A stretch of DNA of 64,000 nt from Chlamydiota bacterium (GTDB taxonomy: Bacteria > Auribacterota > Tritonobacteria > UBA1439). The stretch covers positions 1 to 64,000 of the forward strand of contig JAAYCL010000021.1 in assembly GCA_012729785.1 (NCBI GenBank). The letters are read 5' to 3'. This document shows, in pieces, positions 2,293 to 5,365 of the stretch. Under the pieces are notes generated by a model that saw only the letters and a program-made list of their open reading frames with translations, made no database searches and was not told the DNA's origin. Position 1 is the stretch's first letter, and every line of letters begins with the position of its first letter. Position numbers and translations under genes: made by a program.

Positions 2293-3045
2293 ATGAAAGT
2301 GAAAAGATATCGAAACTCGATCCGGACTATTCCTGCATATGCGCTTCGCAAAAAATGGAGAAGATGGTTGCCCAGGTTAAAGGACGATATTTCTAACCTT
2401 TATCACGACTTGCAGATATATAAAGATTTAGTCGAGATCATAAAGGCTAATCCAGAGACTCTTAACCCGCCAGTATTTTTCAACTGGGCGGAAAACAATT
2501 TCCTCGCCATTTTTTGTGTCGGGATTCGCCGTCTTGCTGATACAGACTTACGATCCATATCCCTCTATCGCCTTCTACAAGAGATTTCTTGGCGACCTGA
2601 TATAGTTAGCCGTCGTAGTTATGTGATGCTACAAAGCCGGCGCGGAATCAATGCGTCTAGGTACAAAGATATCCTCAACCCCTTTAATGCTTTTGATGAG
2701 GTTGCTGTTAAGGATAAGTCGCGAATATCAGAGAAGCTGGTGAAAAGAGATCTGGATGATCTCAAGAAGGTTGAAGACAGAATCAAACTTTTGGTGGATA
2801 AGCGTATTGCTCATCATGCCCCGTTAAGCCAGATAAGGAAGTTCCCTAAAAAACGGCAGATCGAGGAAGCTCTTGAATTCTATGACCACCTTCTGGCCAA
2901 GTATTATACGTTACTCACCGGGGAGGGGTATTCTACCTTCTACGCAACTCCCCAATACGATTGGCGCATTGTGTTTCAAAGGCCGTGGATGAGCTCTGAT
3001 CCGCGAAAAAAACCACCGCATTACAATGGACCTAAGCTGGTCTAG
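2293..3045 (+). CDS. AT-rich hypothetical protein, HEPN/AbiU2-like
   Basis: A 250-residue protein, rich in Lys/Arg at the N-terminus (residues 1-30) and largely helical in appearance. Residues 169-175 (DKRIAHH) resemble the basic-His signature of AbiU2-like HEPN proteins, many of which are RNases; the leading Arg of the canonical RX4-6H motif is not obvious, so the family call is tentative. It has no signal peptide or membrane segment. Codon use is much more AT-rich than in the rest of the window, which points to horizontal acquisition. It begins 81 bp after the CRISPR array and reads away from it. It could be an abortive-infection or defence effector, or simply island cargo. No good Shine-Dalgarno sequence precedes the ATG. 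Confidence 0.7.
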   Translation: MKVKRYRNSIRTIPAYALRKKWRRWLPRLKDDISNLYHDLQIYKDLVEIIKANPETLNPPVFFNWAENNFLAIFCVGIRRLADTDLRSISLYRLLQEISWRPDIVSRRSYVMLQSRRGINASRYKDILNPFNAFDEVAVKDKSRISEKLVKRDLDDLKKVEDRIKLLVDKRIAHHAPLSQIRKFPKKRQIEEALEFYDHLLAKYYTLLTGEGYSTFYATPQYDWRIVFQRPWMSSDPRKKPPHYNGPKLV

Positions 3046-3376
3046 ATTTAGGCACAAGGTGAAAAACCGGGGTCACCTCGACTATTGACTGAGCGCCGGA
3101 TACTACACTGCTATTGTTGTTGTGGGGGCAGGAGGCGGGTAGAGTAGTTCCAGAAGCAGTTCAGTCACTAGTCGAGGTGACCCTTGCGCTGTTCGTGGGC
3201 AAGATAACGCCGGAGGTATGGAACCGTCTTGACTTGCCCCCCGAAAACTGGGCCAGTTGCATTTAGAGCAAAGCGATCAGGGCGAGGAAGCAAAGAGGAC
3301 GTTAGTGCCGTCTGAGCCGGAACCCATCATTGGCCGCGGGGTGAGCCAAAGGTTTTGATCTCGAAAGGAGGCCATC
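3046..3376. other. Intergenic stretch with mobile-element relics
   Basis: These 331 bases hold no supported gene. They contain the inverted-repeat element at 3070-3183 and, at about 3229-3268, a stretch with TTGACTTGCCCCCCGAAAAC and a following AACTGG-GC-CAGTT inverted repeat that resembles an IS3-family terminus. No transposase is present. Confidence 0.45.
3070..3183. repeat. MITE-like element with 23-bp terminal inverted repeats
   Basis: The left arm (3070-3092, starting GGGTCACCTCGACTA) and the right arm (3161-3183, ending TAGTCGAGGTGACCC) are reverse complements with a single mismatch over 23 bp. They enclose about 68 bp of non-coding sequence. Size and structure fit a miniature inverted-repeat element. 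The right end plus 10 bp of flank (GAGGTGACCC...GCTGTT, 3174-3193) recurs with 18 of 20 bases identical at 3717-3736, so the end sequence is present at least twice in the island. I could not see a clear target-site duplication. Confidence 0.6.
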
Positions 3377-3718
3377 ATGCACGCAGCAAAGATGTCGGCA
3401 GTCGTGGCGTGTCTGCTGCTGATGCTCTCCTTATCCACTGTCAGCGCACAGACATACACCCAATACGGCAACACGTATTACGGTTCCGACGGCAGTTCCT
3501 ATAGCCGGTATGGGAACACCCTGTACGGGAGCGATGGAAGTACGTACAGCACGTACGGCAATACCACCTATGGGAATGACGGCAGTTCATACACCAGGTA
3601 TGGAAACACGATTTACGACAATAGAGGCAAGAACTGGACGACGTACGGCAACACCACGTATGGTTCGGACGGCTCTACCTGGTCTCGATACGGGAATCAG
3701 ATTTATCGCAACAATTGA
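3377..3718 (+). CDS. Secreted YGNT-repeat protein
   Basis: A 113-residue protein with a clean Sec signal peptide (residues 1-24, cleavage near VSA|QT) followed almost entirely by tandem 15-residue units beginning YGNT. Five full units (residues 30-104) carry the pattern YGNTxYGSDGSSYSR and a sixth is partial (105-113). Such Gly/Asn/Ser/Tyr repeats are known from small exported proteins of unknown function; they may form a beta-rich or adhesive structure. The start is fixed by a strong GAAAGGAGG ribosome site at about 3364-3372. Its stop codon abuts the second copy of the GAGGTGACCC motif. Function not established. Confidence 0.8.
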   Translation: MHAAKMSAVVACLLLMLSLSTVSAQTYTQYGNTYYGSDGSSYSRYGNTLYGSDGSTYSTYGNTTYGNDGSSYTRYGNTIYDNRGKNWTTYGNTTYGSDGSTWSRYGNQIYRNN

Positions 3719-3937: not shown

Positions 3938-4021
3938 GCACGGCAAGCCGGAATGGAATCTGTTGTGATGGAGTCAGTTACTTCTGAATGGCAAAGGCGA
4001 TATCAAATTCGGCCTTGACAA

Positions 4022-4046
4022 ATTCGCTATTCGCGAATAGCGTATC
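4022..4046. promoter_or_regulatory. Operator-like palindrome, copy 1
   Basis: Contains the perfect 18-bp palindrome CGCTATTCGCGAATAGCG at 4025-4042 within a 25-bp block that is repeated exactly at 4134-4158. A TTGACA hexamer lies at 4015-4020, so the palindrome would sit between -35 and -10 of a promoter reading right. It is probably a binding site for the downstream wHTH protein. Confidence 0.65.
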
Positions 4047-4133
4047 TAGTTGAGGATTAAAGTATAAGCATTGAACACTGGTTGGCGCAACGTTGTGAAG
4101 CCGGGGTGTCGTATGTTAGGTTTGACTTGAGTC

Positions 4134-4158
4134 ATTCGCTATTCGCGAATAGCGTATC
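4134..4158. promoter_or_regulatory. Operator-like palindrome, copy 2
   Basis: Exact second copy of the 25-bp block; the 18-bp palindrome is at 4137-4154. TTGACT at 4122-4127 gives a plausible -35, and the palindrome covers the expected -10 region. It ends 13 bp before the ATG at 4168, so a bound repressor would block both promoter and translation start. The two copies are 112 bp apart. Confidence 0.7.
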
Positions 4159-4167
4159 CGGGTAGCT

Positions 4168-4686
4168 ATGAAACCACAAGACATACTAGTCGTTTTGAAG
4201 TTGCTGTCGTCCTCTTGGCCAGGGAGTTATGCGGCCATGGGCGAGCAGATAGGGTTGAGTGCTTCCGAGACCCATGCGGCGTTCCGCAGGGCACGGCAGA
4301 GCGGGCTGATTCATCCGGAACAACCATCGCCCGTAAAATCGGCCCTTGCCGAATTCTTATTGCACGGACTCAAATACATATACCCCGTCAAGCCTGGCCA
4401 TAGGACTCGGGGCACACCTACGAGTTTTGCCGCATCACCCTTGGCCGCGGAGTTTGCGTCATCGTCATCGTCGGAGAACGTACCAGTCTGGCCTGACCCG
4501 GAAGGCACACAGTCTGGATATGAGTTCAAGCCGTTGTACCAATCCGTGCCGCTGGCCGCAAAAAGAGATGCGCGACTGTACGAATGGCTCGTGCTTGTTG
4601 ACGCAATCAGAGGCGGGCGTGCCCGTGAGAGGGAACTGGCGGCAAGGATGATCGCCAAACGTTTGGGCTATGGCAAACCATATTGA
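4168..4686 (+). CDS. wHTH regulator/antitoxin of an AbiE-type pair
   Basis: A 172-residue protein whose N-terminal 45 residues form a winged-helix DNA-binding domain (pattern DILVVLKLL...MGEQIGLSASETHAAFRRA...GLI). The rest, residues 50-172, is of unknown fold with a Ser-rich stretch near 95-105. This arrangement is typical of the HTH partner found next to AbiEii/AbiGii nucleotidyltransferases. Its gene overlaps the downstream nucleotidyltransferase by 17 bp, implying coupled translation. Two identical palindromes upstream suggest that it represses its own operon. No strong ribosome site is visible. Confidence 0.8.
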   Translation: MKPQDILVVLKLLSSSWPGSYAAMGEQIGLSASETHAAFRRARQSGLIHPEQPSPVKSALAEFLLHGLKYIYPVKPGHRTRGTPTSFAASPLAAEFASSSSSENVPVWPDPEGTQSGYEFKPLYQSVPLAAKRDARLYEWLVLVDAIRGGRARERELAARMIAKRLGYGKPY

Positions 4687-5365
4687 CCTTCAGGCCGTGG
4701 CGATAGTCGCCAGGCGCTTGGAGCCATTGAACACCAAATGCGTGTTCACCGGCGGCGCGATAGTCCCGCTACTGCTTGATCATCCCGGGTTGGTTGCAGC
4801 CCGAGAGACGAAGGACGTGGATGTAATCATCGAGGTCCAAACACGTCTCAAGTTGTGGGAGCTTGAGGAACGACTCCGCAAGCTCGGTTTTAAGAATGAC
4901 AGTGCCGAGGGGGCGCCGAGGTGTCGATGGATAGTCGATGGCATCCATGTGGATGTAATGCCCTCGACAGACATTCACGGTGAGTTTGGTGATAGATGGT
5001 TTGAGATTGCGATCCGGACGGCAACGCTGAAACGAATCGACGATATGCAGATATGGGTCGTGAGTGCGCCGTGTCTCATGGCGACGAAGCTGGATACTTT
5101 CCTGGACCGAGGCAATGACGATTATGCGATGAGCCACGATATTGAAGACCTCATTACCATCGTGGACGGTCGCGAGACTTTGAAGAGCGAGATCGCAGAA
5201 TCATCAGATTGCCGTCAGTTCATCGGGGATGGATTCACGCGCTTGCTCGCCAGTCCCAAGTTCCGAGACAGTATACAGGGCCACCTGCTGCCGGATGAGG
5301 CGAGCCAACGACGGCTTCCTCTTATTCTCAAGAGAATGGATGAAATTGCAGCCCTTACGAGTTGA
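4670..5365 (+). CDS. AbiEii-type nucleotidyltransferase
   Basis: A 231-residue protein of the DNA polymerase beta-like nucleotidyltransferase superfamily. The signature GG motif is in TGGAIVPLLL (about residue 27) and the metal-binding acidic pair in ETKDVDVII (about residues 46-54); a third acidic position is probably in WIVDGIHVDVMP. AbiEii relatives are toxin components of AbiE systems that block translation by modifying tRNA or similar targets; the substrate here is unknown. It overlaps the upstream wHTH gene. Base composition is lower in GC than the core genome, consistent with transfer as a defence or toxin-antitoxin module. Confidence 0.8.
   Translation: MANHIDLQAVAIVARRLEPLNTKCVFTGGAIVPLLLDHPGLVAARETKDVDVIIEVQTRLKLWELEERLRKLGFKNDSAEGAPRCRWIVDGIHVDVMPSTDIHGEFGDRWFEIAIRTATLKRIDDMQIWVVSAPCLMATKLDTFLDRGNDDYAMSHDIEDLITIVDGRETLKSEIAESSDCRQFIGDGFTRLLASPKFRDSIQGHLLPDEASQRRLPLILKRMDEIAALTS

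Follow-up and report, generated by a model that had tools for sequence, protein, structure and literature searches.

Probable autorepression of a PDC-M21 gene pair through a four-half-site operator that is doubled in an Auribacterota genome

Introduction

What does it mean when the promoter region of a toxin-like gene pair carries the same palindrome twice? The locus studied here lies near one end of contig JAAYCL010000021.1, of which we analysed positions 1 to 64,000 (hereafter the window, 64,000 nucleotides). A first-pass annotation had noted two identical 25-bp palindromes, 112 bp apart, ahead of a gene pair that it called AbiE-type. It had proposed that the winged helix-turn-helix (wHTH) protein encoded by the first gene regulates its own operon, with cooperative looping or double repression at the two sites. 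The questions are therefore whether the palindromes are the operators of this protein, which protein family it belongs to, and what the second copy does.

Results and Discussion

Two identical palindromes precede a PDC-M21 gene pair

Scanning the whole window gave CGCTATTCGCGAATAGCG at 4025-4042 and 4137-4154, a spacing of 112 bp. There was no further match in the window with up to 3 mismatches, and none of 100 shuffles contained two copies. The stretch over which the copies are identical letter by letter is 25 bp long (ATTCGCTATTCGCGAATAGCGTATC, at 4022-4046 and 4134-4158); the perfect palindrome covers 18 bp of each copy, or 24 bp if one mismatched pair is allowed. Throughout the 2.59-Mb genome the palindrome was found at these two places only (up to 2 mismatches), and the looser core form ATTCGCNNNNNGCGAAT matched the same two sites. 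The two copies are thus real and not due to chance, and the possibility raised in the annotation, that the palindrome is abundant elsewhere in the genome, does not apply. No other promoter that uses the operator was found in this genome. The features of the locus are as follows:

4015-4020, forward strand: putative -35 element of the distal promoter P1 (TTGACA), from the sequence, 17 bp from TAGCGT
4022-4046, forward strand: distal operator O1, the 24-bp operator with its four half-sites and one further bp, identical to O2
4038-4043, forward strand: putative -10 element of P1 (TAGCGT), from the sequence and a promoter scan of homologues, overlapping O1
4127-4132, forward strand: putative -35 element of the proximal promoter P2 (TTGAGT), with a 17-bp spacing to TAGCGT
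4134-4158, forward strand: proximal operator O2, which fills the P2 spacer and is the counterpart of the single operator of relatives
4150-4155, forward strand: putative -10 element of P2 (TAGCGT), from the sequence and the promoter scan, 12 nt before the ATG
4168-4686, forward strand: PDC-M21A (M21A), wHTH protein of 172 aa (PADLOC PDLC04515, 6.1e-45), predicted autorepressor and antitoxin
4670-5365, forward strand: PDC-M21B (M21B), AbiEii/MenT-like nucleotidyltransferase of 231 aa (PADLOC PDLC04516, 5.1e-46), predicted toxin

The two reading frames share 17 bp. Being adjacent and matching both models, the genes form a PDC-M21 system, a candidate phage-defence family of PADLOC, and the first gene downstream of the palindromes does encode a wHTH protein, as annotated. 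The AlphaFold2 models of M21A and M21B have mean pLDDT values of 94.4 and 93.9.

Other features lie further upstream. Around 31 copies of a repeat of 36-37 nt (GCATCCGCAGCGGATTCTCGGAGCTTGAGGCGG), with a period of ~70 bp, occupy positions ~35-2190 and are by their form a CRISPR array. The region looks like a defence island, because the array is directly followed by a gene for a HEPN_AbiU2-like protein (2293-3045; Pfam PF18734, 1.1e-7). A small protein, predicted to be secreted and consisting of YGNTxYGSDGSS-like repeats, is encoded at 3377-3718.

A predicted MenT-like toxin with a regulator outside the AbiEi family

The label "AbiE-type" fits one half of the pair. M21B matches Pfam AbiEii (1.5e-5, 25.5 bits for a cut-off of 22.5) and has the conserved GG, TxDxD and K of the AbiEii/DUF1814 nucleotidyltransferase toxins. 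Its top solved relative by fold is MenT1 (8an5, 2.8e-6), which is also the best by profile (4.3e-5). Residues T47, D49 and K140 do not vary among 51 relatives, and the AlphaFold2 model, the fold match and these 51 sequences together identify a nucleotidyltransferase fold with its catalytic residues. In 66 of 80 loci the gene after M21A is M21B, usually with an overlap of a few bases.

The regulator does not fit the label. No Pfam family matched M21A above the cut-off, and its similarity to other proteins, by profile and by Foldseek, is limited to the wHTH (Foldseek matched this part only). An assignment to AbiEi was rejected: the hhalign probability against 11 AbiEi_4-type proteins was 0.2%, AbiEi was absent from the Pfam families shown for 80 M21A proteins, and no AbiEi was among the top Foldseek matches. 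We therefore place M21A in a non-AbiEi family, since it shares only wHTH likeness and lacks AbiEi_4 profile similarity. The gene order suggests an antitoxin role for its C-terminal domain. In its workings the pair resembles the AbiE and MenAT systems, though its regulator comes from another family.

The operator is conserved upstream of M21A across phyla

The annotation had suggested looking for the same palindrome upstream of homologues. We compared 97 loci, some of them near-duplicates, with relatives of M21A from the same phylum, from plasmids, from genome contigs (80 kept of 422 detected) and from viral contigs (3). A single-sequence search of the genome contigs with M21A returned no relatives; an alignment-based search found them. 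No relatives were found in GenBank phages.

Immediately before the start codon, nearly all relatives carry a palindrome built in the same way. It is 24 bp long and made of four half-sites (nTTCnnn-nTTCnn-GAAnnnn-GAAn), with TTC in half-sites 1 and 2, 7 bp apart, and GAA in half-sites 3 and 4, also 7 bp apart; the palindrome of the window is one form of it. At least three in-register TTC/GAA half-sites were present upstream of M21A in 89% of the 97 loci, spread over many phyla, and in 0% of the controls (400 bp upstream, in-gene and shuffles), so the suggested check was passed. A palindrome score of at least 9 was reached by 69% of the loci vs 1-2% of the controls. Among 43 genomes of the window's phylum, ATTCGCNATTCGCGAAT had 6 matches, of which 5 were upstream of M21A: two in the window and one in each of three other genomes. 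The remaining match was an orphan. The same pattern written backwards had no match in these 43 genomes.

Some sites lie in other contexts. An orphan operator without an M21A match, in a genome of the same genus (L133, G024 contig C364, ~1326-1342), is directly joined to TTGACCTGCCCCCCGAAAACTG. This sequence also occurs at about 3229-3264 of the window and may be the end of an insertion sequence that removed the operon. An operator-like ATTCGCTATTCTAGAATAGCGAAT occurs around position 860 of a betaproteobacterial MAG (L079), upstream of a Fic-like gene (1040-2206), and another defence-type gene may thus use this kind of site. In L036 a second operator (1413-1436) lies ~1.1 kb further upstream, and an intact M21B could not be recognised (3017-3560); this is possibly a decayed duplicate of the system.

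The operator overlaps the promoter

Both copies in the window fill a promoter spacer and overlap the -10 element, as had been proposed. The TTGAC[AT] motif said to lie left of each copy is a plausible -35 element for the first only (TTGACA). The motif left of the second copy, TTGACT (4122-4127), is 22 bp from TAGCGT, which is too far, and TTGAGT is preferred. One relative (L007) has a single promoter with the same TTGACA-17-TAGCGT layout as P1.

A sigma-70-like promoter scan around the operator (pattern TTGnnn-17-TAnnnT) gave a score of at least 7 in 48% of the loci vs 5.8% of shuffles, with TTGACA-17-TAAAAT in L024 and TTGCGC-17-TATAAT in L036 as examples. The -10 element starts most often 4 bp to the right of the operator centre, and its most frequent distance to the start codon is 6 nt. 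Such a short distance suggests that the mRNA is leaderless or nearly so. From this geometry, a bound repressor would cover the site of the RNA polymerase.

Operator types change with the recognition helix

The majority of operators belong to the ATTCGC type; other types are ATTCTA, GTTCAT, ATTCCA and GTCC. Of the alignment columns of M21A, residue 34 shows the strongest association with operator type, followed by 33 and 37, and E34 falls within the recognition helix predicted by AlphaFold2 (residues 32-44). We built a tree from the M21A columns outside the HTH, which was poorly resolved. It contained seven changes of operator-centre type and four changes of E34, and all four coincided with a change of operator type. 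This coincidence (p=7e-5, branch-length weighted) ranked first of all columns, the next best being 0.0125. Only seven operator-type changes were available, and a stricter test by independent pairs lacked power, the pairs being too few.

Plasmid loci added after the co-variation analysis provide a partial out-of-sample check (one of them, L016, had been fetched earlier and left out of the co-variation set). All six whose helix starts with SK[ST] (L016, L135, L136, L139, L143 and L144) have GTCC-type half-sites, the sites of L016 and L143 being weaker; the half-sites of L015 and L017 are of this type too. Residue 34 is T or V in two cyanobacterial loci (L142 and L145), which nonetheless retain some ATTCGC-like half-sites. 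Because these two break the pattern, the E34 rule is not strict. By these sequence comparisons, the association between helix and operator is real, but it does not follow a one-residue rule.

M21A very probably represses its own operon

Our reading is that M21A very probably represses the M21A-M21B operon through this operator. We base it on the comparison of sequences: the site precedes nearly every relative and co-varies with the recognition helix, it lies in the promoter, and it is exclusive to this locus in the genome. The autoregulation proposed at first pass is thus strongly supported. M21A, probably in the form of two dimers, would bind the four half-sites (two direct, two inverted) of the 24-bp site and would thereby cover the promoter spacer and the -10 element. 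The operon would be repressed when M21A is plentiful and open when it is depleted. M21B, the toxin-like nucleotidyltransferase of the operon, would be toxic and neutralised by M21A. With the promoter-operator unit doubled at a distance of 112 bp, P1 and P2 would both be repressed.

Control may also act on the protein. As a working hypothesis, M21A may exert part of its control over M21B by promoting T47 phosphorylation, in analogy to MenA1 and its toxin MenT1 (PMC11375011). In several proteobacterial plasmids the M21 pair is followed by a gene whose Pfam match or annotation is that of a phosphatase (PP2C or metallophosphatase):

L016, 3180-3851: phosphatase third gene
L135, 2471-3208: phosphatase third gene
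L138, 2483-3301: phosphatase third gene
L143, 2987-3670: phosphatase third gene

It is possible that these act on the phosphorylation of the toxin, which would be compatible with the T47 hypothesis.

Number and spacing of the operators

A single operator is present in most loci, and two in nine of the 97. The distances in these nine range between 23 and 187 bp and show no shared helical phase: 112 bp in the window, 77-78 bp in L028 and L062, 23 bp in L049 and L063, 43-44 bp in L101 and L102, 169 bp in L075 and 187 bp in L016. An obligate loop is unlikely because the distances share no helical phase, and the cooperative looping of the first-pass annotation finds no support among relatives, most of which have one operator. 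M21A bridging O1 and O2 into a repression loop is a rather improbable explanation of the window itself: identical sites are separated by a distance at which some loops form, such as those between GalR operators in E. coli, but 112 bp is ~10.7 turns, which puts the sites out of phase. A doubled site that may widen the range of repression, as shown for Rv2827c (see below), is more economical than looping. The second site might instead be idle, with only O2 regulating the operon and O1 a relic of an ancestral promoter displaced by a rearrangement. This is conceivable, if doubtful. It would suit the single operator of most relatives, the TTGACA of O1, which makes this copy resemble the single promoter of L007 more than O2 does, and the 87 bp between the copies, which are unique in the genome and encode nothing obvious. 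Against it, no decay is visible in either copy: the two are identical over 25 bp, and both have -35 and -10 elements 17 bp apart. Eight other loci also have two operators.

Two further explanations were considered. The palindromes could be bound by something else, such as a host regulator or an integrase, or could mark the end of a mobile element; integrases are often near M21 loci, and the orphan copy in the same genus is flanked by an integrase-like frame on one side and by a repeat resembling an element end on the other. We consider this very unlikely, given that the site tracks M21A across many phyla, changes its letters with the M21A helix, sits at the promoter and has no copy elsewhere in this genome. 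Least probable of all is an RNA hairpin in the leader, an attenuator or a terminator. O2 would belong to the leader of a P1 transcript and could pair with itself, but the predicted fold of this leader is no more stable than that of shuffles (z 0.31), and in many relatives the operator is upstream of the likely transcription start. Autorepression by M21A is the explanation that we prefer, and it may act at both operators, the double repression of the first-pass annotation.

Comparison with known systems

Repression of an operon by its own antitoxin, bound at inverted repeats, is a well-known kind of mechanism. AbiEi negatively autoregulates via inverted repeats in its promoter (PMC7319586). Like AbiE, a type IV toxin-antitoxin system, the M21 operon has two genes, for a DNA-binding protein and then a DUF1814-type nucleotidyltransferase. 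It differs in its regulator, which lacks profile similarity to AbiEi_4-type proteins, and in its operator, a 24-bp site with four half-sites instead of a pair of 23-bp inverted repeats separated by 3 bp (PMC7319586).

The doubled operator has a published precedent of multi-repeat autoregulation in the antitoxin Rv2827c of M. tuberculosis (Rv2827c-Rv2826c, i.e., MenA4-MenT4), which represses its operon from an upstream site with two pairs of inverted repeats, to which it binds; the two pairs can widen the range of concentrations over which it does so (PMC7319586). The repeats of Rv2827c are 23 bp long, in tandem and bound with negative cooperativity, whereas the window has two compact identical 24-bp sites 112 bp apart, and the two families of regulators have no detectable sequence similarity.

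The toxin is closest to MenT1 (8an4/8an5), whose T39, D41 and K137 were tested experimentally (PMC11375011). They correspond to T47, D49 and K140 of M21B, the first two by profile alignment of the TxDxD motif and the lysine by its place in the motif. The antitoxin MenA1 is different from M21A, and MenAT1 is reported to be controlled mainly post-transcriptionally (PMC11375011).

The PADLOC model of PDC-M21, matched by both genes, includes neither operator nor mechanism. We found no literature naming PDC-M21 in the library searched, outside which most subscription journals lie, and nothing resembling a bacterial operator for the core ATTCGCGAAT in titles and abstracts. The M21 family, its four-half-site operator and the helix-linked variation thus appear not to have been described previously.

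A broader proposal, which we advance tentatively as more likely wrong than right, is that M21A and its operator form an evolving DNA-recognition code across phyla. Residues 32-37 would dictate the half-sites (ATTCGC, ATTCTA, GTTCAT or GTCC), MenT-like toxins would be held by a non-AbiEi antitoxin, and the third-gene phosphatase of some proteobacterial plasmids may reverse the phosphorylation of the toxin threonine. If the code is real, M21A with the substitution E34Q would match the operator TTCTAGAA.

These results give a widespread and uncharacterised family of defence candidates a testable control mechanism and a DNA motif that marks its members. The natural pairs of changed helices and changed operators are a good set for learning how wHTH proteins switch DNA specificity. 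They would also mean that AbiEii/MenT-type toxins have autoregulating antitoxins of at least two unrelated kinds.
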